Source: Candidatus Thiodiazotropha sp. (ex Monitilora ramsayi)
GTDB lineage: Bacteria; Pseudomonadota; Gammaproteobacteria; Chromatiales; Chromatiaceae
Length of the DNA: 64,000 bases
Direction: 5' to 3'
NCBI GenBank assembly: GCA_025655595.1
Contig: JAHXIO010000006.1
Coordinates: forward strand, 62,001-126,000
Shown piece by piece: positions 8,653 to 34,708 of this stretch. The stretch's first letter is position 1. Each line of letters begins with the position of its first letter. Position numbers and translations under genes: made by a program. Under the pieces are notes generated by a model. That model made no database searches. It was not told the origin of the DNA and saw only the letters and a list, made by a program, of their open reading frames with translations.

Positions 8653-9795
8653 ATGCGGTTTACCCTCTATCTTATTTCAATTCTTCCTCTGCTCATTTCA
8701 TTCACCGGTTGCAGTTCCAACGGCGGTTTCTTCTCCGATTCGGAGCGGGAATACCGCAGGCAACAGGAGACAGTGCAGGATCTGGAGGTGCCGCCGGACC
8801 TGACCAGTTCAACCATTCGGGATGCCATGGTGGTGCCGGGTACGGGTGGTGCGTCCTATGAAGCCTATACCAAAAGAGAGCAGCGCATTGCCCCTGGTGC
8901 TGGCAGCAACGCAGAAGTGCTGCCGGATTTTGAAAATGTCTCCATTCATCGGGACGGAGATCTTCGCTGGCTGGTGATTCAGGGTGAACCACAGCAGGTT
9001 TGGCCGAAGATTGTCGATTTTTGGCGTAAGAATGGACTATTGTTGGTGGAGCAGGACCCGGCCATCGGTGTCATGAAGACTGACTGGCTTGAGAGCCGTG
9101 CCGACATCAAACAAGGAACGATTACCGAGTTTTTTCGCAAGGCTGTTGGCGGCGTCTACGCTTCAGCGACTCGAGACCAGTTCCGGGTGCGGCTGGAGCC
9201 GGGTCAGCAAACGGGTACTACCGAGCTCTATCTGACCCACCGCGGTATGGAGGAGAAGCTGGTGGAGAACATCAGTGGGCAGGCGGACACCACCTATTGG
9301 ACGCCACGACCAAACGATCCTGGGATCGAGGCCGCCATGCTGCGTAGTCTCATGGTCCACCTGGGTATCACCCAGGAGCAGGCTGAGACCATGCTGGCCC
9401 AGGAAACCGAAGAGCAACCGCGATCCAGGCTGGTGAAGACCTCTCAGTTCAGCGAGCTCTACATCAGAGAGGGGTTTGCCCGAGCCTGGCGTTTGACCGG
9501 TATCGCCCTTGATCGGGTCGGTTTCGCAGTCGAGGACAGAGATCGGAGTGCAGGTGTCTACTATGTGCGTTACAACCAGCTCAGTAGCGATAAGACGGAG
9601 AAAAAAGGCTTCTTCTCTAAGCTTGCATTCTGGCGTGATGATGAGGCCGAGATCGACGACAAGGTTCAGTACCAGGTGGCGTTGGACGAACTCGACGAGG
9701 AAACCCGGGTGGTCGTCCGCAATGAGGCCGGGGTGATGGATAACTCCGAGATTGCCCAGCGCATACTGGCACTGATTGACGAGCAGATCCGTTAG
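8653..9795 (+). CDS. bamC: Outer membrane assembly lipoprotein BamC (NlpB)
   Basis: A 380-residue lipoprotein of the BAM complex, which inserts beta-barrel proteins into the outer membrane. The start at 8653 gives a clean lipoprotein signal (MRFTLYLISILPLLISFTGC) with the lipidated Cys at the end. It is followed by the unstructured BamD-binding segment with VPPDLT and then two helix-grip domains (roughly residues 95-210 and 260-378). An in-frame extension back to 8542 is rejected because it would place residues before the signal peptide. Position after dapA matches the E. coli order. Confidence 0.93.
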   Translation: MRFTLYLISILPLLISFTGCSSNGGFFSDSEREYRRQQETVQDLEVPPDLTSSTIRDAMVVPGTGGASYEAYTKREQRIAPGAGSNAEVLPDFENVSIHRDGDLRWLVIQGEPQQVWPKIVDFWRKNGLLLVEQDPAIGVMKTDWLESRADIKQGTITEFFRKAVGGVYASATRDQFRVRLEPGQQTGTTELYLTHRGMEEKLVENISGQADTTYWTPRPNDPGIEAAMLRSLMVHLGITQEQAETMLAQETEEQPRSRLVKTSQFSELYIREGFARAWRLTGIALDRVGFAVEDRDRSAGVYYVRYNQLSSDKTEKKGFFSKLAFWRDDEAEIDDKVQYQVALDELDEETRVVVRNEAGVMDNSEIAQRILALIDEQIR

Positions 9796-12889: not shown

Positions 12890-14191
12890 TTATTCGGTAT
12901 CAGGCGTCTCCTCTTCCGCCACCGGACAGCAGCGGTACTCCTGCGATTTGTCCAGCAACTCGATCTGCCGTTTCAGCAGCTCGTTTTGCAGACGCTGGTG
13001 CTCCAGCTCAATCTTGATACTCTCCTCCAGGGCCGGTTCACAGGTCTGGCAGTCGTCGAGGCAGCCCCTCACCACTACCCCGGGGGTGGGCAGGCTGGTG
13101 CGGAAGGAAAACTCCATCTCGGCACGGATCTCTTTGGCAACATTGCCCTTATTGTCGAGGATGCCGTTCTTCTGCAGATCAGCCTGTACCGCACTGATGG
13201 CTTGGTTCCCCAGTGTCTGGCTGACAGGCTCCTGATTGACGTTGATGGCACCCAGGGAGGCGAGATTGACCCGGCGGAAACTCGCTAACTGAGGCGTTTG
13301 CAGTTCCGTCGCCAGATAGGCGGCCTGCAGTTCCGGCAGTTTGCTGGAGTTGGCCAGCACGCCGGCGGGCAGGGTGGTCAGTTGGGGATCCCTGGCGATG
13401 GGTCGGTTGACGACTGAACTGTCGCCGGCGGGATCGATCACCCTGGTGCGGACAGCCTGGATCGTCAGCTTGACCGTCTGCACCTTGTTGACCTGGTAGA
13501 AGAGGTAGGTCACCGCCCGGCACCGGTTGGGATTGGAGAAGGTGCGGCTGCTGCTCTCCAAATGGCTTTCGCTCTCTCCCTCTGCATGCTGACGTGTGGA
13601 GACCTCGCCGATGGAGACCGAATTGGACTCACGGGTCATCTGTACCGCACGGTTATGGGAGGACTCCGCATGCACGTTCAGTTCACGCAGGAAAGAGCGG
13701 GTCGATTGGGCGTTGTAGTTCCCGGATACGCTGACCGAGGGACCGCTGAAGATCGTTTCAAAGATACCACTCGTGCTGCCGGAACTGGATGCCGAACCCG
13801 ATGAGCTGGACGAGGCGCTGCTCTTGTCGCTCGATTCCAGATCCGACATAAAACGATCCACCGAGTCCATATAGAACTGCTCTTCGGCCATGCGCTCGTG
13901 CCGGTAAGAGAGCTGAGTCTCGCTATCGAAGGTGAAGCGGGAACGCCGGTCCAGACTGAAGAGGCGAACCTTCTCACCGGGCAGTAGGGTGGTGCTGTAA
14001 ACCAGATTACCCTGCTCCATGGGTCCCGTGCAGCGTTCCAGGCGGATATGCAGCGCCACCTCCACCGGTACCCGGTGAGAGCGGTTGTTGTCGTTGACCG
14101 TCGCCAGGTGCGTCAGACGATAGACAAAGTCCAGGTAGTCGCATTTCTTACCGTCGGGGATCTCGGGACAGCAGGCTATCGAGTTTTCCAT
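12890..14191 (-). CDS. Protein of unknown function with Ser-rich low-complexity segment
   Basis: A 433-residue protein that I do not recognise. It has no signal peptide. Visible parts are a beta-rich N-terminal domain (about 1-85) with TTLLPGEKVRLF, an acidic helix with SRFTFDSETQLSYRHER, a serine run (about 120-140), a second beta-rich part (about 145-260), and a C-terminal helical region with cysteine pairs GCLDDCQTC and YRCCPV. The GGAGAA Shine-Dalgarno supports the ATG at 14191. It precedes the 195-residue unknown and is divergent from the 776-residue unknown. A structural role in a secreted or surface assembly is possible but only a guess. Confidence 0.75.
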   Translation of the reverse strand: MENSIACCPEIPDGKKCDYLDFVYRLTHLATVNDNNRSHRVPVEVALHIRLERCTGPMEQGNLVYSTTLLPGEKVRLFSLDRRSRFTFDSETQLSYRHERMAEEQFYMDSVDRFMSDLESSDKSSASSSSSGSASSSGSTSGIFETIFSGPSVSVSGNYNAQSTRSFLRELNVHAESSHNRAVQMTRESNSVSIGEVSTRQHAEGESESHLESSSRTFSNPNRCRAVTYLFYQVNKVQTVKLTIQAVRTRVIDPAGDSSVVNRPIARDPQLTTLPAGVLANSSKLPELQAAYLATELQTPQLASFRRVNLASLGAINVNQEPVSQTLGNQAISAVQADLQKNGILDNKGNVAKEIRAEMEFSFRTSLPTPGVVVRGCLDDCQTCEPALEESIKIELEHQRLQNELLKRQIELLDKSQEYRCCPVAEEETPDTE

Positions 14192-23861: not shown

Positions 23862-24297
23862 ACGACAGCGCTGTTTGCCTCTTCTGATCGTCCTATGGTT
23901 GACGGTGTTGTGGACGGGCGAAGCGATAGCGGGCGCCAGTTGCGTCATCGCCAAGCGGCTGGGAGACTCCCTCGCCATCGAATGGATCGCCTCCCCCGAT
24001 GAAAGCGCCGAATCCGCCATCCTCAAAGCCAAGCAGAAACTGCTCGAACAGGGCTATCGACAGAAAGGACAGGACGTCCACGCCCAGGCCAGCACCTGGA
24101 TGCCCCATGCTCACATGGTCATCGTCAAAACCACCTATACCACCAGGACGGGGCGTACCCGTACCAGCTACGGTTGCGGTTACAGTCCCCGTTCAGCCGC
24201 CGAAGCGGAAAGAGCGGCTGTCTACGATCTGCACAACTACTCCTGGGGCTGGAAACCGGAATTGGGATATGAAGTGATGGAGTCGTTTCGGTACTGA
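23818..24297 (+). CDS. Secreted protein of unknown function
   Basis: A protein of about 159 residues with a signal peptide (PLLIVLWLTVLWTGEAIAGA) followed by about 120 residues without membrane segments. It is not recognised. It has two Cys (ASCVIAK and YGCGYSP) that could form a disulfide and the repeated hydrophobic/aromatic end LHNYSWGWKPELGYEVMESF. The ATG at 23818 overlaps uup by 44 bp, pointing to translational coupling; a TTG at about 23875 is an alternative. A hairpin terminator overlaps its stop codon. Confidence 0.7.
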   Translation: MNAGKPWNRCRQAVRRQRCLPLLIVLWLTVLWTGEAIAGASCVIAKRLGDSLAIEWIASPDESAESAILKAKQKLLEQGYRQKGQDVHAQASTWMPHAHMVIVKTTYTTRTGRTRTSYGCGYSPRSAAEAERAAVYDLHNYSWGWKPELGYEVMESFRY

Positions 24298-24755
24298 CTC
24301 GAGGTAGCCTCGTCAGCTTTTTTGTCTGGTGTATTCCCTGGTGCTAATGTATTTTTCTTTTCCAGTTTGAATTGATCTCGTCCCAAGCCTGGTTTTGGTC
24401 GTTTGTTTACGAGTTCAATTCGTCTGATATCCTCTATTCGAAATAGAATTTCCCCTTCACTCTCACCATCCCTGAATTCATAGATTAAGTTATCATTTCC
24501 CCAGTACATGGCATCATCCATGAGAATAAAGCCGCTTTGTATCTGGTTATTGGTTATTCTGGTGTATAGAGGAAAACTGATCTTTCCGTAATAGTAGTAA
24601 CTTTCAATGCCATTATCTTTGAGCGGGACGTTGAACTGAGCAAATACCCAGACTTTTTTACTGCTTGAGTTGGCTTTTGCAGCTTGGACTTCATCGTTCA
24701 GATTACAGCCCGTCAATAAAACAGAGAGTAATACTAGTAGCCAGTAGTTTTTCAT
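24237..24755 (-). CDS. Lipoprotein of unknown function (cassette gene, C-terminus probably a run-on)
   Basis: A 172-residue frame with a lipoprotein signal (MKNYWLLVLLSVLLTGC) and an exported domain with WVFAQFNVPLKDNGIESYYYYG and a beta-rich middle; no family is recognised. The last ~27 residues are encoded antisense to the terminator and the 3' end of the gene at 23818, which is not how a native stop is usually placed. I infer that the original 3' end and its attC were lost at the edge of the cassette array and the frame now reads into the neighbour. Its start lies 20 bp after an attC core site (24775). Confidence 0.6.
   Translation of the reverse strand: MKNYWLLVLLSVLLTGCNLNDEVQAAKANSSSKKVWVFAQFNVPLKDNGIESYYYYGKISFPLYTRITNNQIQSGFILMDDAMYWGNDNLIYEFRDGESEGEILFRIEDIRRIELVNKRPKPGLGRDQFKLEKKNTLAPGNTPDKKADEATSSQYRNDSITSYPNSGFQPQE
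24294..24323 (+). terminator. Terminator of the uup-secreted protein operon
   Basis: CTGA-CT-CGAGG / CCTCG-TCAG pair around a 3-nt loop and are followed by a run of six T. The structure overlaps the stop codon of the preceding gene and also lies inside the minus-strand lipoprotein frame that converges on it. Confidence 0.7.
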
Positions 24756-24774
24756 CTTGATACTTCCTTAACAA

Positions 24775-24840
24775 CGCTAACGTGTCCTTTTCAACAAGGG
24801 GGAATCAGTAGCTGTATCCGGTGTGTAACACTGGTTGGGT
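24775..24840 (-). repeat. attC-like site 1
   Basis: Plus-strand cores CGCTAAC (24775-24781) and GTTGGGT (24834-24840). Next to them AAC-GTGT pairs with ACAC-TG-GTT, leaving TG unpaired. Hairpins at 24802-24846 (AATCAGTA/TACTGATT), 24873-24888 and 24888-24916 and the palindrome CAGATTATAATCTG (24851-24864) follow on, so this spacer is unusually rich in secondary structure. Confidence 0.5.
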
Positions 24841-24945
24841 ACTGATTGATCAGATTATAATCTGTTGATTTACGCTTCGCTTGAAGCGGGTAAAAGGGTC
24901 GTCGACCCCTTTATCCGAAAGATTATCATTTGTCACCGATGCCTT

Positions 24946-25320
24946 TTATTCAGTAGAGTTGCTTTTTGAGAGTAAATTATCTAAAGGTATTTTTGCGCCA
25001 CACCAAAAACAGTTCGATCTTCTGCTTTTTATCTTTTTTCCGCACTCTGGGCATGATGTAATGGTGCTCGATGATTTTCCATCTTTAATGCCATCTCTTA
25101 AATCTATCTCTTTTATCTTTTTTTCCAGTTGGTTCTCTGATATGCCATTTTCTTCCAGTAACTCCCAGATGGCATGTGTAATAAGGATTAAATTATCCAG
25201 TTTTTCTTCTACATAGACTATATCGCTGGAATTTGAGTGTGACCTTACCTGAGTTTCACCCGTTACAGATTTAACTCTTCCAATTCTATATTCTTGAAAT
25301 GTATCCCGAACCCATCCCAT
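24946..25320 (-). CDS. Hypothetical protein with C-terminal zinc ribbon (cassette gene)
   Basis: A 124-residue protein not recognised beyond its C-terminal zinc ribbon: CPECGKKI and CFWCGAKI, four cysteines spaced as a zinc-binding knuckle pair. The N-terminal part is charged and helical (ITHAIWELLEENGISENQLEKKIKEID), perhaps a dimerisation helix. The start is 18 bp after the core site of attC 2. Codon use is AT-rich compared with the core genes. Confidence 0.65.
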   Translation of the reverse strand: MGWVRDTFQEYRIGRVKSVTGETQVRSHSNSSDIVYVEEKLDNLILITHAIWELLEENGISENQLEKKIKEIDLRDGIKDGKSSSTITSCPECGKKIKSRRSNCFWCGAKIPLDNLLSKSNSTE

Positions 25321-25337
25321 TTCATTATCCTAATTTC

Positions 25338-25410
25338 AGTTAACGCCTCGCTCTAAGGCGAATTTTGAGCGCAGCGTAAAAATTTGTCCAACAGCAGCGT
25401 CTTGTTAACT
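25338..25410 (-). repeat. attC-like site 2
   Basis: Symmetrical cores AGTTAAC (25338-25344) and GTTAACT (25404-25410), 73 bp in all. The arms align as CGCT-CT-AAGG...AATTT against CGCTGCTGTTGG...AAATTT when one is reverse-complemented, with isolated unpaired bases. Confidence 0.65.
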
Positions 25411-25431
25411 TTACCACTGCATCAATTCTAT

Positions 25432-25911
25432 TTAGAAAACACCGTTTTCATTTCTAACCTTCCCGCCAAAAAACAACCCATACAGCCTCATAGGTAAGCT
25501 AATAGCTTGTATCGCATCCCAGTGTTCAACCAAACGGCCATCAACTACCTTCCATGTATCTATGATATTTAGGCCTTGTGAATCATCTCCCCGATGTTTC
25601 GCCCTCAGGGTCGCATGAGAATGAATAGTAACGTATTCGCCATCTACATAAATGTGCTTAACATCATAACTAAACTCAGGTGCATTTTTTACAAAATCAC
25701 TGACAGTTTTTATAACCCCCTCAATGCCATCGGCAATATTACGATTGTGTTGTCTGTAAGGGCTGCCTGAGTATCGACGTGATATTTCCTCAAAATTATG
25801 GTCGTTCATAAGCAGTTGAACAAACTCAAGGACAGCCTCAGCACTATTTTTAGCGTCAGTGCTCCAATGCGCTTTTTTTAGTGTATCAATATCAATTTTT
25901 GGATTTGCCAT
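25432..25911 (-). CDS. SnoaL-like / NTF2-fold protein (cassette gene)
   Basis: A 159-residue protein with the NTF2-like SnoaL fold: AEAVLEFVQLLMNDHNFEEISRRY, YRQHNRNIADGIEGV and a terminal WKVVDGRLVEHWDAIQ, as in ester-cyclase-like and quinone- or aldehyde-related SnoaL proteins. Substrate unknown. The AGGAG Shine-Dalgarno supports the ATG. It is divergent from the HxlR regulator at 26064, and both probably share one cassette and one control region. Confidence 0.8.
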   Translation of the reverse strand: MANPKIDIDTLKKAHWSTDAKNSAEAVLEFVQLLMNDHNFEEISRRYSGSPYRQHNRNIADGIEGVIKTVSDFVKNAPEFSYDVKHIYVDGEYVTIHSHATLRAKHRGDDSQGLNIIDTWKVVDGRLVEHWDAIQAISLPMRLYGLFFGGKVRNENGVF

Positions 25912-25973
25912 CTCTTGCTCCTAATTACTTAAAATATTAAAAACGCTAGCTGAGAGGCAGCGCTTCATTTAAC

Positions 25974-26026
25974 TTGCATAATGCAAGGGTAAATTAATTG
26001 ATTGCAATATGCAAGTGAATTACAAT
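25974..26026 (+). promoter_or_regulatory. Promoter and twin operator for hxlR-type regulator
   Basis: Two near-identical palindromes, TTGCATAATGCAA (25974-25986) and TTGCAATATGCAA (26002-26014), have centres 28 bp apart. A promoter TTGATT (25998-26003)-17 bp-TACAAT (26021-26026) points at the HxlR gene, and the second palindrome fills its spacer. This predicts autoregulation and control of the divergent SnoaL gene. Confidence 0.65.
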
Positions 26027-26063
26027 CTAAATCATTGTTTGAAGTGAAACACGGTGAGGAAAA

Positions 26064-26462
26064 ATGCCCCGGCGTTCAGATTGTCCTATTTCTAATGTTT
26101 TGGATTTTGTGGGTGATAAATGGAGCTTGTTGATTCTCCGGGATCTTGTTTTTTTCAATAAACACTCGTATTCGGAGTTTCTAAACTCACCAGAAAAAAT
26201 GGCCACTAATATACTGTCAAGCCGCCTGGAAAGACTTGAGAATGATGGCTTAATAGCCAAAAAGGTTGATGTGGAGGACAAGCGAAAGAATGTTTATACA
26301 CTGACGCAATTAGGCAGGGATATGTTGCCAATCATGTTAGAGATGATGATTTGGAGCAGTAAGCACGATCCAAATACCAATGCCCCTGAGCAACTAATAA
26401 AAAGGGCAAAGAACGATCGTGAAAACTTAATAAATGACTTGTTGGGTAGAATTGAAAGTTAA
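26064..26462 (+). CDS. HxlR family winged-helix transcriptional regulator (cassette gene)
   Basis: A 132-residue regulator with the HxlR signature CPISNVLDFVGDKWSLLILRDL, where the N-terminal Cys7 is the usual redox/electrophile-sensing position, then FLNSPEKMATNILSSRLERLENDGLI (recognition helix) and the wing KNVYTLTQLGRDMLP. It is the only plus-strand gene in the array. Its stop codon lies inside the core site of attC 3, so its end is set by the cassette boundary. GGTGAGGA precedes the ATG. It likely controls itself and the SnoaL gene. Confidence 0.88.
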   Translation: MPRRSDCPISNVLDFVGDKWSLLILRDLVFFNKHSYSEFLNSPEKMATNILSSRLERLENDGLIAKKVDVEDKRKNVYTLTQLGRDMLPIMLEMMIWSSKHDPNTNAPEQLIKRAKNDRENLINDLLGRIES

Positions 26463-26544
26463 CGCCCATGTTTAGGGGCCGCCGGCGAAGCCGGACGTCC
26501 CAGTGAGGAGCAGAGCGACGAACGGCTAGAACTACTTGTTATGT
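26457..26544 (-). repeat. attC-like site 3
   Basis: Cores AGTTAAC (26457-26463) and GTTATGT (26538-26544), 88 bp. The arms pair as GTT-TAG against CTAGAAC with one unpaired base, and the inner part holds a GCCGGC-GAA-GCCGG hairpin. Confidence 0.6.
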
Positions 26545-26559
26545 TTTTCTCGTACGCCA

Positions 26560-26988
26560 CTACGATGGAACCCATTCTTTTGATTGATACTCATACGCCC
26601 AAAAATCAGGCCCGCCGGTTTCAAAGAGTATTTCAATGCGGAGTTCTGGATTGCCTTGCATATGACCTTGCGCAGCCAACTTTGCCTCTTCAAATGTGAA
26701 GTAGTGGTATTTTTCTGCATCCACGTACAATCTGAATTTCTTCTCTTCCAAATGCTCTTTGTTCATTCCTTGAACTAGTGCTTTTACGCAATAAATGAGC
26801 AAGATGAAAAAAGCGACTGTAAGAACGAGTGCTCCCCCGGCCCATATTGCTGCTTTTTCGGCAGGCCACCTTTCAGGTTCTGCTGCACTCAACCATGAAT
26901 AGAAAACCACGCTTAATCCCGCGTATCCAGTAGCTGGAATGGAAATGACCACTCCAACCCAAAGCAGCACCTTCCGTTGGTTGATCAT
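26560..26988 (-). CDS. Hypothetical membrane protein (cassette gene)
   Basis: A 142-residue protein with two transmembrane segments (KVLLWVGVVISIPATGYAGL and IWAGGALVLTVAFFILLIYC) and a C-terminal cytoplasmic domain with FRLYVDAEKYHYFTFEEAKLAAQGH and WAYEYQSKEWVPS, which looks like a small beta-alpha-beta module. No family is recognised. The frame is open to 27087, but that would read through attC 4, so MINQRK at 26988 is taken as the start, 8 bp after the core site; no clear Shine-Dalgarno is present. Confidence 0.65.
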   Translation of the reverse strand: MINQRKVLLWVGVVISIPATGYAGLSVVFYSWLSAAEPERWPAEKAAIWAGGALVLTVAFFILLIYCVKALVQGMNKEHLEEKKFRLYVDAEKYHYFTFEEAKLAAQGHMQGNPELRIEILFETGGPDFWAYEYQSKEWVPS

Positions 26989-26995
26989 TTTTTTA

Positions 26996-27065
26996 ACATA
27001 ACGGTTGAGCTGTGGGGCACGAGGCGGATTTTTGCCGATAGTCCAACACAAGTGATTTGTTATAC
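26996..27065 (-). repeat. attC-like site 4
   Basis: Cores ACATAAC (26996-27002) and GTTATAC (27059-27065), 70 bp. The arms align through TGTG--GGGC and TGTGTTGGAC after reverse complement; an inner GGCGG/GCC hairpin closes the loop. Confidence 0.55.
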
Positions 27066-27067
27066 GC

Positions 27068-27511
27068 TTATTCGCTAAATTTAGCATCTGCTGCCTTTGT
27101 GCTCACAGTAGTTATTATGTCTTGCACGGCTTCTGTATCTTGTTTTTCCCACACTATCCACTCTGCGTTATCAAACATAACTAGCTTAGAGCTAATGTTA
27201 TTGTTTTTTAGATTTAATAATGTTTCTTCGCGCAATTCGTCAGCTATAGAAAATGACCTGCCTGTAGGGATGATTTTATTCATTTCTGCTTCCATAAAAC
27301 CCATTAACCAGGATGGTGGTGGATTAGCTACCTCTAGGGTTGTATTGTTGATTTCACGATACCATTCATTTGTATCATTTAGTTTAGTGATAAGTAGTTC
27401 TGTAATTGCGTTGTGCCCAGTATGCACTGGTACTGTGTTGGTTGGCGCAGAAGATTGAGAGCAGCTCAGTATGCTAAAAATATGCACCAGTATATAAATA
27501 TGTTTAATCAT
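27068..27511 (-). CDS. Putative lipoprotein of unknown function (cassette gene)
   Basis: A 147-residue exported protein: MIKHIYILVHIFSILSC is a lipoprotein-type signal ending at Cys17. The mature part has helical stretches (NAITELLITKLNDTNEWYREI, DELREETLLNLKNNN) and a WIVWEKQDTEAVQDIITTV end. No family is recognised. The start is 7 bp after the core of attC 5 and the stop lies 3 bp after the core of attC 4, a textbook cassette fit. Confidence 0.65.
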   Translation of the reverse strand: MIKHIYILVHIFSILSCSQSSAPTNTVPVHTGHNAITELLITKLNDTNEWYREINNTTLEVANPPPSWLMGFMEAEMNKIIPTGRSFSIADELREETLLNLKNNNISSKLVMFDNAEWIVWEKQDTEAVQDIITTVSTKAADAKFSE

Positions 27512-27517
27512 GTATGC

Positions 27518-27579
27518 GTATAACGTCTAGCTTCAGCCGCGCGCGCCTTTGACGCGTCGACTGGAAGCTTTTGTTAGCT
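27518..27579 (-). repeat. attC-like site 5
   Basis: Cores GTATAAC (27518-27524) and GTTAGCT (27573-27579), 62 bp. The arms AGCTTC-AG and CTGGAAGCT pair with a single extrahelical G, the signature that sets the recombined strand in true attC sites; an inner CGCGCGCC/GACGCG element forms the loop. Confidence 0.72.
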
Positions 27580-27594
27580 CATTTTCTTGCCACA

Positions 27595-28935
27595 TCATCT
27601 GCTAATCCCACTCAAAGTAAACTCAATTGATCGCCTTCGCCTCTCGTTGAGAAGATATGAGCAATTCGCATACTCGCGATTAATCATTTGAATTTGTAAT
27701 GCCGACGGTTGACTGCTGCTTCGATTGAAGTCAGTATCCCATTTCACTAATTCTGACTGTATCATGCCCTTATTTGACGAGTTATCGTCTGTGGTTATAT
27801 CTAAAACCCTTAACAAGAATATAAGCCTCTCCCATTTATTTGATGTTTTCATTGCTCTGGTAGTTAATGCTAAAGTATGGGGATTTCCATGTATATTTAT
27901 GGCTTCTTCTATTTCATGCGAGCCAAATTTCAACTTCAGTTTTGCAATCAGTCTAGATGCCTCCTTAGCTACACTAGGGGAAGGATCATCAAGGGCGACC
28001 ACCAATAATGATTTAGACTCATCTCCCATGAGTTTTTCTAATGCTTGGATTGCTGACTTTCTTATGCCAGGTGACTTATTGTCAAGATGTTGCGATATAG
28101 ATGGTATTTCTTGTTTAGCACCTAAATAGGCTAAACCAAGAATCGAAAATTTCTTGCGTGAGATACTTTTAGAACCACTAGTGACCTCAAAAGAGTAGAT
28201 GCTTCTGACATCGCACCCCTTCCTTAATAGATGGGTGATGGCTAATTCACGAATAGATATATGCCTGTCAAACAGAAATGTATTTGCAATAACCTCCCCT
28301 TGTTCAGGACTGTTTTTTAAATAAATTAGAAACGCTTCACGCCTTATTGGCATAAACGGGTCTTTAATCGCGAGTTTAAGCAGGACAGAAAGGGTTTCAC
28401 CAGAAACCTCACGTAGATGGCCTGCTGCAATATTTCTAACCAGTACATCTGGATGGGAAAGGCATTTGTTAACTAATTCGTCTCTGTCTAATAACGAATG
28501 ATCAAAGCATAACCGGACAGCTATCCTTGCTACTTTTGGTTCTAATGAAAATGCGACTTCCCTTATGGATTCTGAATTTTCATCTTTTAACAAATACTCT
28601 AGTACATTATCTATAAATCGTGTGTGATTGTCTCTGCCACAAGTTTTTAAATGAAATAGATCAGGAAGACTCTCTGCAAATGCTTTCGCATTCTTGGGGG
28701 TCATCAACTTGAGCAACGCACTCCTTGCTGCCTCTCGTACTTGAGGAACCCAGTCATTTACCCTGACTATTAACTTAGGTATTGCGACGGGGCTACCGAG
28801 CATTCCTAACCGACGAACAGCATTTTCTCTTTTAAAGCCATTCCAATGCTCTGCCATCATAAGCAAATCATCTAATCCTTCTTGCTTATGAAAGGATCTT
28901 AACAAGCGTTTTAAGAGGTTTTCATTTTCTTCCAT
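27595..28935 (-). CDS. HEAT-repeat-like protein (cassette gene)
   Basis: A 446-residue all-alpha protein made of HEAT-type repeats: recurring units such as GSPVAIPKLIVRVNDWVPQ, VREAARSALLKLM, IREVAFSLEPKVARIAV and IRKSAIQALEKLMGD, each about 35-40 residues. Such solenoids bind other proteins; no enzymatic motif is visible. It is unusually large for a cassette gene. The start is 16 bp after the core of attC 6 and the stop is 16 bp from attC 5. Confidence 0.75.
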   Translation of the reverse strand: MEENENLLKRLLRSFHKQEGLDDLLMMAEHWNGFKRENAVRRLGMLGSPVAIPKLIVRVNDWVPQVREAARSALLKLMTPKNAKAFAESLPDLFHLKTCGRDNHTRFIDNVLEYLLKDENSESIREVAFSLEPKVARIAVRLCFDHSLLDRDELVNKCLSHPDVLVRNIAAGHLREVSGETLSVLLKLAIKDPFMPIRREAFLIYLKNSPEQGEVIANTFLFDRHISIRELAITHLLRKGCDVRSIYSFEVTSGSKSISRKKFSILGLAYLGAKQEIPSISQHLDNKSPGIRKSAIQALEKLMGDESKSLLVVALDDPSPSVAKEASRLIAKLKLKFGSHEIEEAINIHGNPHTLALTTRAMKTSNKWERLIFLLRVLDITTDDNSSNKGMIQSELVKWDTDFNRSSSQPSALQIQMINREYANCSYLLNERRRRSIEFTLSGISR

Positions 28936-28950
28936 AGCGGATATTTATTG

Positions 28951-29012
28951 AGCTAACGATTAGCGTAATAGGCGCGACGAAAGGAGCGTCCTAATTAACG
29001 CGCTTGTTAGCT
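28951..29012 (-). repeat. attC-like site 6
   Basis: Cores AGCTAAC (28951-28957) and GTTAGCT (29006-29012), 62 bp. The arms GCG-TAAT-AGG-CGC and GCG-TCCTAATTA-CGC pair with isolated unpaired bases. On the minus strand it begins GCTAACAAGCGCG, a common attC start. Confidence 0.72.
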
Positions 29013-29488
29013 GTTAGGCCGAAATCACTTTGTAGTTTATCGAGCTCACTCCACTCCTTATCTTCATAAAAATTGATTTCAATTGGATAAACTGGATGCC
29101 CATTTAATGCCTTATTTAAATTAGCCATAAATTGCTCTCGATCTGCTATGTAAAAAACAAACTCTTTAAGATTATTTCCAGTGGCAGAATAAACATCCAT
29201 ATATAATAGTTCCCTATCTTTTATTGTTTCTAAACCATCTTCTAATTTAATCATCGATTCGTTTATTTCTTCTGACGGCATTCCATTGTTATTAGTGCCA
29301 TTGTATTTCCATGACACAACAGTAAGCCATGGAAGTCTGTGACGAGTTACTTCATCTGGAAATTCGTTCATGAATTTGTAGATAACTGGGTTACCTTTGA
29401 TTTTCGCTTCACCAACTGACCATGTCTCTTCAGACCACGCCATGACAGAAACTCCAAATGTTATCAATAATGCAAGGATAGATTTCAT
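28991..29488 (-). CDS. Exported protein of unknown function (cassette gene)
   Basis: A 165-residue protein with a Sec signal (MKSILALLITFGVSVMAWSE) and an exported domain with WSVGEAKIKGNPVIYKFMNEFP, VVSWKYNGTNNNGMPSEEINESM and a mid-chain FYIADREQF; no family is recognised. Its last residues (TANKRVN) are encoded inside attC 6, as often happens in cassettes. The start is 12 bp after the single core site at 29500. Confidence 0.65.
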   Translation of the reverse strand: MKSILALLITFGVSVMAWSEETWSVGEAKIKGNPVIYKFMNEFPDEVTRHRLPWLTVVSWKYNGTNNNGMPSEEINESMIKLEDGLETIKDRELLYMDVYSATGNNLKEFVFYIADREQFMANLNKALNGHPVYPIEINFYEDKEWSELDKLQSDFGLTANKRVN

Positions 29489-29499
29489 CTCTCTTATAC

Positions 29500-29543
29500 A
29501 GCTAACAGTTTATTATATTGCTGGCACAAATAGCGTGTTATGC
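29500..29543 (-). repeat. Degenerate attC-like end of the array
   Basis: AGCTAAC (29500-29506) matches the other core sites and is 12 bp from the first cassette start. GTTATGC (29537-29543) could be the partner core, but the arms between them (30 bp) do not pair well, so this is a partial or decayed site at the array edge. Confidence 0.4.
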
Positions 29544-29875
29544 CGCAAGCACAAATATTGATTTATATTGCATATTGTTCACACAATGTTCTCATTGCAA
29601 TATTGACTGGCAACCTTTTTGATATGCATTAGAAGTCCTTCAACCTTATGATTTTCTAAGAGTATCTATAAGAAACTCAAAAGATGCCAGAATAATCGGA
29701 GCCTGTCTGTAGTCTTTTTCCTACACAGCCACTTTTAGTGAAGTGAATGACTAGGTTATTCGGTGAATCCCCATTGTCTCAATTACTTTGTATTACTTAC
29801 ATACCTGGTTTGGCGTTCTGCTATTTACATGTAGCCCGCTACTTTATGCCGGTCCGCAGGCAGTCATAACGATAG

Positions 29876-30091
29876 CGGATAACTCCCATAACCTGTGGAC
29901 AAGGGCCCTTTCATGGACAAATAAAAGGGGACACTGCTGAATTCAGCCTCAAAGATCAGCAAGCGGCGCTGGACGTTTACGCCTGCGTGAAGATCAACAA
30001 AGGGGTGGCGGGACTCGAAGACCTGCGATCGGCCTTGAGTAGCCGGTTCCGTTGCAAGAGCGTTCGGGTTCCTGCAGAGGCCGAAGCCTGA
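29876..30091 (+). pseudogene. Gene remnant (C-terminal fragment, no start codon)
   Basis: A 71-codon open frame without an ATG. Its second half (EFSLKDQQAALDVYACVKI and SALSSRFRCKSVRVPAEAEA) has the composition and GC content of a core gene, unlike the surrounding AT-rich DNA. I read it as the decayed 3' end of a lost gene; the family is not recognised. Confidence 0.35.
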
Positions 30092-30231
30092 TTATCGTAC
30101 CTCCGGCCGGTTGATTAACCGGCTGGTCTGCATCTGGCGGTACCACACGAACCGGACAGATAACCCCAGCATCCCTTTTTCCTGCCTCGTAGGGCCGTTT
30201 TTGAGACTCACGAATGGTTTTTGGTACCTCT

Positions 30232-30375
30232 CCCGATGATTTTTTAAACGCATCGGAAGATTTTCGAAAACCGTGGGATATTTTTACTGGGTCACAAGAC
30301 TAATTTCGAGGTTCGCCCGATTTTTTTTGAAACCGATGGGATAAAAAGACCGGATCACGAGATGATTTCAACTCG
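30232..30375. repeat. Imperfect tandem repeat of about 70 bp
   Basis: Two diverged copies can be aligned: CCCGATGATTTTTT...CCGTGGGATA...CTGGGTCACAAGA and CCCGATTTTTTTT...CCGATGGGATA...CCGGATCACGAGA. Origin unknown. Confidence 0.5.
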
Positions 30376-30415
30376 GCATTGACCAAAATTTAGTCAATGC
30401 CGAGATTATTTTTGA
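30372..30415 (+). terminator. Strong hairpin with T-rich tail
   Basis: CTCGGCATTGAC and GTCAATGCCGAG form a perfect 12-bp stem with a 9-nt loop, followed by ATTATTTTT. It has the form of a terminator, but no gene is seen directly upstream. Confidence 0.55.
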
Positions 30416-30682
30416 CATGAGCCAGAATATTTTACTCGTGATCCTCAATCAACATCTCGCCGTTTTCAATATTATTTGCTCACGCCTCAATCAGAGACCC
30501 GTCATTCTCAAATATAAAGGAATGAACCTCAATCGGAATGCTGTACTGCTCTCTATTAATCGTTTTAGGTTCGATCAAAAATTCATAATCCATATAAAGT
30601 GTTTTTTGATTCAATCAGATCGCTAAACTATTGTTCAGTTATTCCATCTGTCGATTACACCAAACCAACTATTGTAAGCAGA

Positions 30683-31111
30683 ATGATCTATCGGGGTGCA
30701 ACATCGTCTGATCTTGTAGGAATTGAAAGGCTGCTGCGTGCCTGTCGCTTGCCTTCTGACGACATTGCCGATCATGTTCAAAACTTTGTCATCGTTGAGG
30801 TTGCGGATGAAATCATCGGTGTCGGTGGGCTTCAGGTCTGCGGAAGAGAGGGGCTGATCCGTTCTATAGTCATCGCACAGGATTACAGGGAAAGGGGAGT
30901 GGCAGAGAAGCTCTATCGGATCTTGGAGGAATGCGCCCGCTCGATCAGAATTGATGCGCTGTATCTGCTTACAGAATCGGCGGAAGGATATTTTTCCAGG
31001 CTCGGTTTTACGACTATCGAACGTGGCGATGTCCCTCGATCGATTACCGAGACACAGCAGTATCAGACGCTTTGCCCGTCGTCGGCAAAGGTAATGATTC
31101 GTAAACTCTGA
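30683..31111 (+). CDS. GNAT acetyltransferase, ArsN2-like
   Basis: A 142-residue GNAT-fold enzyme. The acetyl-CoA site is near SIVIAQDYRERGVAEKLYRI. The end block YLLTESAEGYFSRLGFTTIERGDVPRSI and TLCPSSAKVM closely follows ArsN2-type arsenic-resistance N-acetyltransferases, so acetylation of an arsenical or similar small amine is possible; no ars genes are adjacent. ATG 30683 is used because it begins the GNAT fold (MIYRGATSSDLVGIERLL). An upstream in-frame extension to 30599 is not family-like. Confidence 0.78.
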   Translation: MIYRGATSSDLVGIERLLRACRLPSDDIADHVQNFVIVEVADEIIGVGGLQVCGREGLIRSIVIAQDYRERGVAEKLYRILEECARSIRIDALYLLTESAEGYFSRLGFTTIERGDVPRSITETQQYQTLCPSSAKVMIRKL

Positions 31112-31166
31112 CAAGGTCTGCAGATAAACATGACTTTTCAGGATCAGGGCAGCATTACATTCACCA

Positions 31167-31201
31167 TTGAAAAACATGTATATGCAACTATAATCGGGAT
31201 A
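31167..31201 (+). promoter_or_regulatory. Promoter and operator of the MarR gene, probably leaderless
   Basis: TTGAAA (31167-31172)-16 bp-TATAAT (31189-31194). The word CATGTATATGCA (31175-31186) fills the spacer and recurs inverted at 31674-31685 in front of the next gene. The -10 ends 6 bp before the ATG at 31201, so transcription would begin at or next to the start codon. Confidence 0.6.
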
Positions 31202-31626
31202 TGGAAAATGATATCTGTTTCAATTTGGCGATGCGAAAATCGACTCGATTGATCACTCAGTTTTATGAGAGAAGATTCAAAGCTGTTGATCTGAAGGTTG
31301 GACAGTTCTCCATTTTGCGAGCCACCTATTTGCACCGTGAAACCACAAATAAAGACTTACAAGGTTTATTGGTACTCGATCAGACAACGCTATCCCGCAA
31401 CTTAAAGCCGCTATTGCGTGACGGATATTTACAAATAAAGCCAAATGTAAACGACAGTCGAATCAAAGTGATAAGCCTTACTAAAGCGGGTAAATCGCTA
31501 TATAAAAAGGCCTTGCCCATTTGGGCTCAAGCACAAGAGGATGTCATTCAAAGGCTTGGTGTAAATAATGCAAAAGATGTATTAAACATAGCCGACGTTT
31601 TTCTGGACGCTTTCAGCGATAGTTAG
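31201..31626 (+). CDS. MarR family transcriptional regulator
   Basis: A 141-residue winged-helix regulator: FSILRATYLHRETTNKDLQGLLVLDQTTLSRNLKPLLRDGYL is the helix-turn-helix and SRIKVISLTKAGKSLYKKALP the wing and dimerisation helix. No Shine-Dalgarno precedes the ATG. An identical 12-bp word lies in its own promoter and over the start of the following hydrolase gene, so it probably represses both. It has one Cys (Cys6 in MENDIC), a possible redox switch. Confidence 0.87.
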   Translation: MENDICFNLAMRKSTRLITQFYERRFKAVDLKVGQFSILRATYLHRETTNKDLQGLLVLDQTTLSRNLKPLLRDGYLQIKPNVNDSRIKVISLTKAGKSLYKKALPIWAQAQEDVIQRLGVNNAKDVLNIADVFLDAFSDS

Positions 31627-31673
31627 AATCAATGCATTTATATTCTCGTCTGGAAAATGCCTAGCATAAAACA

Positions 31674-31685
31674 TGCATATACATG
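31674..31685 (-). promoter_or_regulatory. Second MarR-type operator, at the hydrolase start
   Basis: TGCATATACATG is the exact reverse complement of the 12-bp word in the MarR promoter. With the flanking CA it extends to CATGCATATACATG, an imperfect palindrome. It overlaps the first possible ATG (31683) of the hydrolase gene. Confidence 0.6.
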
Positions 31686-31694
31686 GTGAGTAAA

Positions 31695-32564
31695 ATGAAT
31701 GCGACAGCGAATGCGCCCCATAGCAATCTTAAATGGATAAGTGGCGGCGTAATTAAATACGTGGTGATCAACGGTATCAATATTCGATATCTTCAGGTAG
31801 GAGAGGGTCCGCCACTGGTTCTTATTCATACTATTCGTACCCAGTTGGACTATTTCCGAAAAATCATTCCTGAATTAGCTAAACACTACTGTGTTTATGC
31901 GCTGGATCTACCGGGTCACGGTTATTCAGACATTGTTGATCGGGCACACGATAAACCCCTATTTGTTGATGTGGTTACAACCTTTATTAAAGAGCTGGGA
32001 TTGAAAGAGGTGACACTGGCTGGGGAGTCCATAGGGGGTTCAATCGCTCTGGGTGTGGCGACAAAGCAAGAGGTAAGTATAAAGCGTGTTATCGCTATGA
32101 ATGCTGCTGATTATGACAATAGCAACGGACTCGATCGAAGCTCCGTCTTGGGGCGAATACTATTCACTGGGATCACATGGCCTGTCATAGGTTGGGTAAT
32201 ATCCAATGCCGAAACCCGTGAAGTGTTGAAACTAATATTGCGCGGTGGATTTGGTCATCCTGATCATCTACCCAAAGACTTGGTAACTGAATTTAGTCGC
32301 GTGGGGAAACGAAGGGGTTATTCGAAGGCTTTCCGGTCCATCTTTCTGAATTGGCACAGCTGGACAGAAAATAGAAAACTGTATCGCCAAATCAACACAC
32401 CGGTCGTGCTGGTCTATGGTGAACATGACTGGACGACTCAGAGTGAAAGAACGAGCAATCTAGAGAGTATTAAGGATTCAAGATTGATCGAAATTGAAGG
32501 TGCAGGTCACTTTTCATCATTGGACAGCCCGGAGAAAATTACAGACATCATTCTCAATGGTTAA
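31695..32564 (+). CDS. Alpha/beta hydrolase
   Basis: A 289-residue alpha/beta-hydrolase-fold enzyme with the oxyanion region PPLVLIHTIRTQ, nucleophile elbow GESIGG, catalytic Asp in YGEHDWTT and His in GAGHFSS. Relatives are esterases or haloalkane/epoxide-type hydrolases; the substrate cannot be told. The ATG at 31695 has GGTGAG upstream and avoids overlap with the operator; the ATG at 31683 is the alternative. It probably belongs to the MarR regulon as its main target. Confidence 0.85.
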   Translation: MNATANAPHSNLKWISGGVIKYVVINGINIRYLQVGEGPPLVLIHTIRTQLDYFRKIIPELAKHYCVYALDLPGHGYSDIVDRAHDKPLFVDVVTTFIKELGLKEVTLAGESIGGSIALGVATKQEVSIKRVIAMNAADYDNSNGLDRSSVLGRILFTGITWPVIGWVISNAETREVLKLILRGGFGHPDHLPKDLVTEFSRVGKRRGYSKAFRSIFLNWHSWTENRKLYRQINTPVVLVYGEHDWTTQSERTSNLESIKDSRLIEIEGAGHFSSLDSPEKITDIILNG

Positions 32565-32731: not shown

Positions 32732-34708
32732 TCAGATCAAGTCTGAGTTATTCGTTCCTGCCGGTATCACCACTTGCGGGCAGACCGCCGCAATCTCGTC
32801 GTAGACCTGCCATGGCGCTTCTTCATAGCGGCGGGAGAAATGAAAAGGGATCAGGTGTTGGACTCTCGCCGTTCTCGCGATCTCCGCGCAGGCTTTGGTG
32901 GTCAGGTGGCCGGTACGTTGTGCCTGTGCCGAGTCTTTCTCTCTAAAAGGGGATTCACAGAAGAGGGTGTGGGCGTCTTGCGCCAGTGTGGAGAGTTTCA
33001 TGCGGTTCCCGGTGGTGTCGGCCAGATCGGTGGCGTAGGTGATTTTACTCCCGGGGAGGGTCAGTGTGAGATCGTCAGCCAGTTGGCGAACACGCTCTTT
33101 ACTGCCGTCGGGCAGGGTGATCTGTGCATCCCATCGTTCTTCGACGATCAGCTGTTTCAACTCGGTGAGCCAGGGGCCGGGTGCGAGATCGCGTTGAATG
33201 AGCCGCTCTTTGCGGACGTTGATCTGCATGACGGGTTCAAAAGCATAGGCGAGCACGGGAATGCCGTGATCGAGGGTGACGGCGCGTACGCAGAAGCCGG
33301 CTTCATCCAGTACGACGCCGTCCTTGATCGCCACCTCGCCATTTTGCTGACGGCCTGCAATGCCGGCTTGCAGGCTGAAGCGGATAAGGCGCTCGCCGTG
33401 CAGTTCCGCAATATCGAAACGGGGTCCCCGGTCACCGATCCGATCCCAGTGGATGCCGTTGATCAGGTGTCCTATTTGATCGGTGAGACCGGGCGGACCG
33501 TAGAGGCGGCAACTCCCCGCTTCACCGATGCGTGAGCGCAGCAGCCAGAGGAATCCGCAGATATGGTCCATATGGGCATGGCTGATGAAGACATCGCTCA
33601 CCTGATGCGCCACTCGTGCCGGCAGGCGTGCCCCGTCGCCGAGGTCGAAGAGCAGACTGCGCCGCTGGTGAGCCAGGCGGAGATGGAGTTGGGGATCGCC
33701 GAAGACGCCGTTCATCAAAACCGCGGAGGCGCTGCCGGTCTGCACCATGGGACGGAGCCCGATTTCCTGCGGCAGTTTGGCGTCTGGCACCAGGTCGGAG
33801 GGGGGGAGATAACGCACCACGTTCTCCGCGAACCGCTTGCCGGTCACCAGCGAGCCCGAATCGTTACGGACGGCGTCACGCACCAGGACGACCCGGGTCT
33901 GCCGGTCTTCCGGGGGCAGCAGGACCTGCAGGGTCTCCCCTGTCATATCGACGACCTCACCCATACCGACTGTTCTCTCTGCTTCAAGAAATGCCACTTG
34001 TTTGCCCAACCAGGCTTCGGCTGCCCGGCGGGGCGGCGTCCCCAGGGTGCTGACTTCGGATAGGGTGGTCTCCACGCTGTTTGCATGGACCAGATAGTCG
34101 TCCCATAAGCGGGTGCGCTCACGGTTTCGGGCATTTTTACCAGGACGTCCGGCCGACGGCGAAGCCTCGACTGTCGCGACCTCGGCAGGCAGTGTGTCGA
34201 GCTCCTGGTTTAGGCGGGGCGCCTGTCCCTCTCGAATCAGCACCATCACAAGGTCCACATTTGCTGCACGCGCTAGCGATGTTAGGAGTTCAGCCCCCGC
34301 CACGCCACGTACGACCCCGGGTGCATCGATGAAAAGGGTGCCGTCCTCAACCTGATCGGCCAATCCGCCGACGGCCTCGATGAGGGGCAGGCGGAAGCGG
34401 GCGGCGTCGAGGCTGCAGATCGCCGCCCGATCCACGACTTCCCACTTGTCGCGGTGCCACAGACCGAGACTGACCGCGCCGGGGATACCGAATGACGGCC
34501 TCCCCGGATCCGCTGCCAGACACCAGATTCGTCTGCCTGACTGACTCAGTGACACCGCCAGTTTTCCCGCCAGGGTGCTTTTACCGATACCAGGCGGGCC
34601 GAACAGCAGCACGCGTCGCTCCCGAGCCAACAGCAGTTCGGTCAGTGCTTCAGGGTGTTCTGCGTGGAAGTGTCGATTCATTTCTACGGGCCCATATGGC
34701 AGTGGCAT
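32732..34708 (-). CDS. Fusion of Clp1-type polynucleotide kinase to RNase Z-like nuclease
   Basis: A 658-residue two-domain protein. Residues about 30-300 are a P-loop domain with Walker A GPPGIGKST (37-45) followed by WCLAADPGRPSFGIPGAVSLG, the pattern of Clp1/Nol9/Grc3 polynucleotide 5'-kinases (DxGQ..xxPP..SL). Residues about 320-658 are an RNase Z-type metallo-beta-lactamase domain: HAHMDH (377-382), DLADTTGN with a metal Asp, and FHFSRRYEE near the end, as in the tRNase Z HxHxDH and HFSxRY motifs. It suggests one protein that cleaves RNA and phosphorylates a 5' end. The start at 34708 or 34681 is uncertain; neither has a clear Shine-Dalgarno. Confidence 0.85.
   Translation of the reverse strand: MPLPYGPVEMNRHFHAEHPEALTELLLARERRVLLFGPPGIGKSTLAGKLAVSLSQSGRRIWCLAADPGRPSFGIPGAVSLGLWHRDKWEVVDRAAICSLDAARFRLPLIEAVGGLADQVEDGTLFIDAPGVVRGVAGAELLTSLARAANVDLVMVLIREGQAPRLNQELDTLPAEVATVEASPSAGRPGKNARNRERTRLWDDYLVHANSVETTLSEVSTLGTPPRRAAEAWLGKQVAFLEAERTVGMGEVVDMTGETLQVLLPPEDRQTRVVLVRDAVRNDSGSLVTGKRFAENVVRYLPPSDLVPDAKLPQEIGLRPMVQTGSASAVLMNGVFGDPQLHLRLAHQRRSLLFDLGDGARLPARVAHQVSDVFISHAHMDHICGFLWLLRSRIGEAGSCRLYGPPGLTDQIGHLINGIHWDRIGDRGPRFDIAELHGERLIRFSLQAGIAGRQQNGEVAIKDGVVLDEAGFCVRAVTLDHGIPVLAYAFEPVMQINVRKERLIQRDLAPGPWLTELKQLIVEERWDAQITLPDGSKERVRQLADDLTLTLPGSKITYATDLADTTGNRMKLSTLAQDAHTLFCESPFREKDSAQAQRTGHLTTKACAEIARTARVQHLIPFHFSRRYEEAPWQVYDEIAAVCPQVVIPAGTNNSDLI

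Follow-up and report, generated by a model that had tools for sequence, protein, structure and literature searches.

A bacterial gene fusion of a Clp1/Grc3-type kinase with an RNase Z-type nuclease, and its genomic links to Rtc genes of RNA repair

Candidatus Thiodiazotropha is a genus of lucinid-clam symbionts. In the 4.68-Mb genome of one member, Candidatus Thiodiazotropha sp. (ex Monitilora ramsayi), the whole stretch of 64,000 nucleotides analysed here (contig JAHXIO010000006.1, positions 62,001 to 126,000; 'the window' in the following) carries on its minus strand, at 32732..34708, a gene for a protein of 658 amino acids (aa), the N-terminal half of which is supported by sequence comparison as a Clp1/Grc3-type polynucleotide kinase and the C-terminal half as an RNase Z-type nuclease. 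The kinase-RNase Z fusion is genuine and in a single frame, it is widespread and under selection, and it joins two known families in a new arrangement with a new genomic context. The protein is probably a bifunctional RNA-end processing enzyme, predicted to act on broken tRNA-type RNAs beside RtcB-type repair.

A first-pass annotation, made from the DNA letters, had described one chain over these positions with a Walker A and the ADPGRPSFGIPGAVSLG signature of Clp1/Nol9 kinases in its N-terminal half and a HAHMDH/HFSRRY RNase Z-type nuclease in its C-terminal half, and had suggested a role in RNA cleavage-and-labelling or repair. All these strings are present in a single open reading frame (ORF), and profile searches agree with both assignments; a phyletic search then found a widespread fusion, with Rtc or THUMP genes at some loci, so that the suggested role, as a prediction, is strengthened by the genomic association with RtcA, RtcB, archease and THUMP.

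The fusion gene and its conservation

The ORF runs from an ATG in one frame with zero internal stops; the second methionine, residue 10, is an alternative start and matches the start position in several congeners. In a set of 56 genomes, the full-length protein was found in its own genome, in eight of 21 congeners and in one genome of another family (49% identity), the remaining matches being RNase Z halves or short stretches, and the gene is missing from the other 13 congeners. When a genome collection was scanned with the alignment of kinases, 126 relatives were found, of which 80 loci were kept; in 75 of these 80 loci from other genomes the kinase frame continues into the HxHxDH motif of the RNase Z half. 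The kinase frame runs off the contig edge in L066, L067 and L069, and L086 and L094 have the RNase Z half behind the kinase but in a different frame; in L094 (Pontibacterium granulatum, 8990-8995) the TGA stop of the kinase overlaps an ATG of the RNase Z frame, an arrangement that reflects either a frameshift or a natural split into two coupled genes. An assembly chimera, which the first-pass annotation had considered as a possible origin of the gene, is ruled out by the full-length copies in congeners and by the single frame in 75 of the 80 related loci.

Both halves are constrained. In four congener pairs, the ratios of non-synonymous to synonymous substitution (dN/dS, Nei-Gojobori method) are 0.21-0.31 for the kinase half and 0.15-0.36 for the RNase Z half, and across 52 aligned sequences the pairwise distances in one half are correlated with those in the other (0.81). 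This aligned set consists of the window protein and 51 of the 80 loci, with both halves; rows that were frameshifted or cut by a contig end, close relatives and other unchosen loci, among them L100, were left out, and invariance is claimed for these 52 only. The gene and its halves are located as follows.

32732..34708, minus strand: whole fusion gene, Clp1/Grc3-type polynucleotide kinase plus RNase Z-type nuclease, 658 aa (ORF, profiles)
33803..34708, minus strand: kinase part, residues 1-302 (CLP1_P above cut-off, 58.9 bits for this stretch)
32759..33745, minus strand: RNase Z-type domain, residues 322-650 (PRK02126, E 1.8e-87 over residues 329-650)

The kinase half

The assignment of the N-terminal half rests on the Pfam family CLP1_P (PF16575), which matches the window protein with E 6.3e-15 and 55.9 bits (curated cut-off 26.6); with a limit of E 0.001, it is also matched by all 52 sequences in the alignment of kinase domains. 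The scores of MeaB, AAA and CbiA/MinD lie far under that of CLP1_P, which rules out a MinD/MeaB-like ATPase, the different P-loop family that the first-pass annotation had named as a possible match. The motifs of this half are the following.

34574..34600, minus strand: Walker A GPPGIGKST, residues 37-45, including Lys43 (G37, G40, G42 and K43 invariant)
34457..34516, minus strand: AADPGRPSFGIPGAVSLGLW motif, residues 65-84 (D67, P71 and P76 invariant; aligned with DLDPGQPEFSPPGVVSL of GRC3)
34295..34327, minus strand: clasp-like DAPGVVRGVAG, residues 128-138 (D128, P130 and G131 invariant; aligned with NTPGWIQG of GRC3)
34091..34147, minus strand: lid-like, arginine-rich RPGKNARNRERTRLWDDYL, residues 188-206 (R198 and W202 invariant)

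The Walker A positions, with the lysine already picked out in the first-pass annotation, the Walker B Asp and the clasp positions are thus invariant across the aligned set. The name 'clasp' is taken from PMC6777427, and its application to DAPGVVRGVAG is a putative assignment made in this analysis; likewise, RPGKNARNRERTRLWDDYL may be the kinase lid, its R198 being invariant and its R194 kept in at least 90% of the 52 sequences. The DPG and clasp segments align to GRC3 weakly (whole-sequence E 2e-4), and where GRC3 has the Gln of its DPGQ motif the fusion family has Ser, Met, Arg and others. When the profile was deprived of Walker A and compared with the PDB, nine sequences were returned at E up to 10, eight of them GRC3 or CLP1, with GRC3 best at E 2e-4 and the unrelated ninth at E 0.22.

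The RNase Z half

Although PRK02126 ('ribonuclease Z', NCBIfam) is the profile met over nearly the whole C-terminal half, its score of 293.5 bits falls short of the cut-off of 315, and TIGR02651, the RNase Z equivalog, gives 109.2 bits, under its cut-off of 292.95; because both scores lie below their cut-offs, the domain is named RNase Z-type and not equivalog. The catalytic equipment appears complete, all residues marked invariant below being so in the 52 sequences.

33563..33580, minus strand: metal motif HAHMDH, residues 377-382 (H377, H379, D381 and H382 invariant)
33266..33268, minus strand: H481, which we take to be a further metal ligand (invariant; aligned to 1y44)
33155..33187, minus strand: GP-motif region LAPGPWLTELK, residues 508-518, presumably the exosite (aligned with PPGPVYQKIKK of Bacillus subtilis RNase Z)
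33026..33028, minus strand: D561, presumably a metal ligand (invariant; aligned to 1y44)
32954..32956, minus strand: E585, taken here as the catalytic acid of the HEAT loop (invariant; aligned to 1y44)
32906..32908, minus strand: H601 of HLTT, presumably catalytic (invariant; aligned to 1y44)
32840..32842, minus strand: H623 of HFSRRY, assumed to be a metal ligand (invariant; aligned to 1y44)

In the GP motif, likewise aligned to 1y44, G511 is invariant and P512 is kept in at least 90% of the 52 sequences. No TIGR02651 match above the cut-off was found in any of the 56 relative genomes, versus at least one in nine of 14 control genomes. The fusion is the top RNase Z-profile match in its own genome, and in the congeners that lack the gene the best such match reaches only E 4.8e-10.

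Distribution and evolution of the fusion

The fusion is kept across genera and classes, the record titles of its loci including Methylobacter, Nitrosomonas, Nitrococcus, Desulfobulbus, Marinobacter, Photobacterium and a Zetaproteobacterium. In the window's order, 23 of 210 genomes have a match with an E value no higher than 1e-20; in some of these it comes from one half (RNase Z alone) or from pieces at contig ends. In the Marinobacter fusion of L100 (7983-9851), HxHxDH and HFS lie about 40 aa closer together than in the other fusions, which may reflect a reduced exosite arm.

In a tree of RNase Z halves, from which row L182 was left out, the fusion rows do not fall on one side of any branch, and stand-alone rows lie among them, on a long branch; the kinase may have been gained by fusion or lost from the stand-alone rows, and the tree leaves the choice undecided. 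Among plasmid records, 17 match, none covering 80% of the query, and every match listed begins at residue 278 or later; the phage records searched contain no fusion and a single record matching the RNase Z half (26%), and no fusion occurs in the viral contigs searched. A mobile origin was considered and rejected on these results.

Association with RtcA, RtcB, archease and THUMP genes

Searches for RtcA and RtcB were carried out in 50 of the 80 fusion genomes, picked for their longer flanks. The RtcB matches fall into two classes, split at a score gap, the high class being that with E below 1e-140, a cut set in this analysis; the label 'archease-linked' for this class rests on three loci (L026, L035 and L185), in which the RtcB copies adjoin archease. 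RtcA is present in 27 of the 50 fusion-bearing genomes versus 18 of 398 genomes of a phylum panel (and two of 210 genomes in the window's order), RtcB of any class in 43 of 50 versus 90 of 398 (15 of 22 in the genus), and RtcB of the high class in 37 of 50 versus 11 of 398. Within the panel itself, the fusion bearers are G000 (the host of the window), G109, G139, in which the contig ends after 165 aa so that only the kinase is seen, G200 and G435; the high RtcB class is present in four of the five versus seven of the other 393. Not counted as bearers were G199 (L128), which shows no kinase motif, and the CLP1_P match in G245. The sole high-class RtcB in the genus is that of G007, a fusion bearer, and it lies beside the fusion. 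The Nitrosomonas genomes G651 and G652 (those of L055 and L056) have six and four RtcB matches, respectively, some of them fragments.

Physical linkage was found in a minority of loci. RtcA, RtcB or archease lies within flanks of up to 8 kb in seven of the 80 loci, namely RtcA in L039, L043, L053 and L060, RtcB in L026, L035 and L097, and archease in L026 and L035. With the gene copy numbers and the sizes of the 50 searched genomes taken into account, chance would place 0.13 cases of RtcA within 8 kb versus four seen (Poisson 1e-5), and 0.25 cases of RtcB versus three seen (Poisson 0.002).

The THUMP domain binds tRNA, and a stand-alone THUMP protein, sought in the loci retrieved and in the window, recurs in some of these neighbourhoods. 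In L043, RtcA, THUMP and the fusion form a row on one strand with gaps of about 50 bp, the THUMP protein (2893-3429) having 179 aa and matching PF02926 with 24.4 bits (cut-off 20.6). On the contig of L041 (L185), a row of THUMP, RtcA, archease and RtcB starts 8.4 kb from the fusion, and its THUMP protein (13597-14139) is 46% identical to that of L043. In L033 (3148-3258), a THUMP-like start of 37 aa (49-51% identical) follows about 80 bp downstream of the fusion, where the contig ends. It is possible that this protein is the tRNA-binding part of a repair set. Matches of 37-39 aa to its N-terminus also occur near the fusion in L041 (6402-6292) and L040 (2113-2003), as either a gene remnant or a duplicate.

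No constant operon partner was found across the 80 loci. The largest neighbour cluster besides the fusion itself spans eight of them, and among 47 close co-directional neighbours (50 listed, from which one entry each of L041 and L086 and the RNase Z half of L094 itself were removed) the most frequent family is found in three. HHH_8 neighbours in six loci and peptidase M28 neighbours in seven looked lineage-bound; a protein of about 300 aa with an HHH domain, encoded close to the fusion (L051, 6369-7268; also L043, L048, L058, L066 and L073), may reflect such lineage-bound synteny.

Proposed function and alternative explanations

RtcB joins a 3′-phosphate or 2′,3′-cyclic phosphate to a 5′-hydroxyl (5′-OH) end (PMC3973293), and RtcA and RtcB have been implicated in tRNA repair, tRNA fragments inducing their operon in Salmonella (PMC7790460). 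The likeliest substrate of the fusion would be tRNA, because of the RNase Z exosite motif and the THUMP neighbour. As judged from the families of the two halves, the RNase Z domain would bind the acceptor/T-arm side of a tRNA or a tRNA 3′ fragment, and the tethered Clp1/Grc3-type kinase would then phosphorylate the 5′-OH left by a ribotoxin or by stress RNases. Since RtcB needs a 5′-OH, the phosphorylated end would be shut to it and open to 5′-monophosphate-dependent decay or to another ligase. The RNase Z domain may next cut or trim the 3′ side, and both activities in one chain would set the fate of the fragment, repair or clearance. A related situation is described for the eukaryotic proteins in a review (PMC13247085), according to which phosphorylation by CLP1 takes away the RTCB substrate and CLP1 silencing increased ligation in insect cells, other CLP1/RTCB results being not in full agreement. 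We hold the RNA-end processing role to be probable, and the direction of the switch between repair and clearance with less confidence than that role. More tentative still, and rather doubtful in its full form, is the proposal of an undescribed proteobacterial tRNA repair set made of archease-linked RtcB, RtcA, the stand-alone THUMP protein and the fusion, the latter acting as a fate switch that closes the 5′-OH.

Several observations weigh against an enzyme working with the Rtc system. A kinase that closes the 5′-OH opposes RtcB, and association alone gives no direction. The window holds no Rtc or THUMP gene within its 64 kb, and its own genome is without RtcA and has the lower-scoring RtcB class only. 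In the genus, RtcB of any class is found in seven of nine fusion bearers versus eight of 13 non-bearers, therefore with no general RtcB link at this level; RtcA is present in none of the five bearers of the phylum panel, and in one of the 23 order genomes with a match to the fusion protein (some of them to the RNase Z half alone). In 73 of the 80 loci the available flank, in many cases short, is without an Rtc gene; L043 and L053 are close relatives, which leaves fewer independent cases of RtcA adjacency, and no THUMP match was found in the L053 locus. The genomes are related, and with kinship ignored the Fisher values for co-occurrence are too strong. As for the kinase assignment, when the profile retains Walker A, the PDB list is topped by chains of RecA and midasin, with CLP1 at E 7.5e-8 and GRC3 at E 9.9e-8; RecA and midasin are P-loop proteins with repeated domains.

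Among the alternatives, end healing of the kind carried out by T4 Pnkp would have the kinase make a 5′-phosphate and the RNase Z domain clear a damaged or cyclic-phosphate 3′ end to a 3′-OH, tRNA halves being thereby readied for an ATP-dependent 5′-phosphate/3′-OH RNA ligase. A kinase and a phosphoesterase in one chain are a described layout of RNA repair (PMC7824862), and the nearby THUMP and Rtc genes point to tRNA repair; the linked ligase, however, is RtcB, which uses the opposite ends, and no ATP-grasp RNA ligase was seen among 10 cluster representatives and 25 of 42 neighbour families, no genome search having been made, so that end healing appears unlikely, if the least so of the alternatives. 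A stand-alone defence or stress gene, whose product destroys foreign RNA or pieces of tRNA independently of the Rtc proteins, would fit the patchy presence of the fusion, its lack of a constant operon partner and its retention in Thiodiazotropha genomes without RtcA or, in eight of nine, without the high-scoring RtcB class. We consider it improbable in view of the enrichment of Rtc genes near the fusion, of the absence of the fusion from the phage records and viral contigs searched, and of the PADLOC library, which gives weak P-loop matches only (best E 3e-5, residues 27-68).

The two halves have also to be weighed one at a time. For the P-loop half, a role as regulatory NTPase or as G-protein-like chaperone, and not as RNA kinase, is suggested by its weaker MeaB, AAA and CbiA family matches and by the replaced Gln of DPGQ; against it speak the rank of CLP1_P as best family for the window protein, with all 52 members matching, the arginine-rich lid-like segment that is kept, and the distant bacterial Ts-Clp1, reported to be an active kinase despite a less-kept lid (PMC6777427), and we regard it as very unlikely. 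Slightly less credit still is given to an ordinary tRNase Z for precursor-tRNA 3′ maturation, with the kinase as an accessory, which would be the least probable of these explanations. The exosite motif and catalytic positions are kept, and no RNase Z match in the host genome, where none exceeds the TIGR02651 cut-off, scores better than the fusion; but a routine role in tRNA 3′ maturation is unlikely because all 30 host tRNA genes read (the best 30 of 46 found) encode the 3′ CCA, in one of them with the match boundary one base off, and because 13 of 21 congeners do without the gene, their own best RNase Z-profile match being as faint as given above.

Relation to known systems

The RNA-end processing enzyme proposed here resembles several described proteins, each in part. 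It shares with Clp1/Grc3/Nol9 kinases, such as Ts-Clp1 of Thermus scotoductus, the CLP1_P match and, in alignment with GRC3, the DPG.P.F..PG..SL and clasp-like motifs, and differs from them in being fused to RNase Z and in lacking the Gln of DPGQ. Its frames have mostly 640-725 aa, versus an average of 333 aa (SD, standard deviation, 74) reported for bacterial Clp1, a protein described as extremely rare (14 of 1,543 species with complete genomes), with one member shown to be a kinase (PMC6777427). With RNase Z, it has in common HxHxDH, the further ligands, the HEAT-loop Glu, the HLTT His and the GP motif; in contrast, it scores below the TIGR02651 and PRK02126 cut-offs, carries a kinase, and occurs in a host whose tRNA genes, as far as read, encode CCA. 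The nearest stand-alone RNase Z-like proteins of PRK02126 type share 34-39% identity with the RNase Z half, and those of L011, L012, L183 and L184 are open frames without a P-loop, unlike the fusion. The RtcB-archease-RtcA repair genes adjoin the fusion in some loci and often share its genomes; to them the fusion adds a 5′-kinase and an RNase Z. T4 Pnkp and the PNK-HAD repair enzymes likewise combine a 5′-kinase and a phosphoester-cleaving domain per chain (PMC7824862).

Two Rtc papers (PMC7790460 and PMC3973293) make no use of the term RNase Z in their main text, and the 2019 Clp1 survey (PMC6777427) uses neither lactamase nor RNase Z in its own. No description of the fusion was found in a literature search with most subscription papers outside its scope, so that a prior mention is possible; within this limit, the first-pass view of the fusion as undescribed agrees with the search. 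The phosphoesterase and kinase of T4 Pnkp and PNK-HAD belong, we presume, to families other than those of the fusion.

Surroundings of the gene in the window

The neighbours of the fusion in the window are FMN reductase, DUF1304, MarR and hydrolase genes. To the left of the gene, positions 24001-32000 have a low G+C content (0.39-0.44 in 2-kb steps versus 0.51-0.63 elsewhere) and may be a horizontally acquired island; a HEAT-repeat protein is encoded inside this stretch, at 27595-28935 on the minus strand.

Significance

The fusion represents a distinct lineage of bacterial Clp1-type kinases, tied to RNase Z and with genomic links to archease, THUMP, RtcA and RtcB genes, and it suggests what archease-linked RtcB does in bacteria. 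Should the repair set tentatively proposed above exist, the cell would choose between RtcB re-ligation and clearance of its broken tRNAs. The tRNA ends on which CLP1 acts in animals are also those of RTCB, and the effect is disputed (PMC13247085); the bacterial kinase-nuclease fusion would offer a small, testable system in which to address this question.
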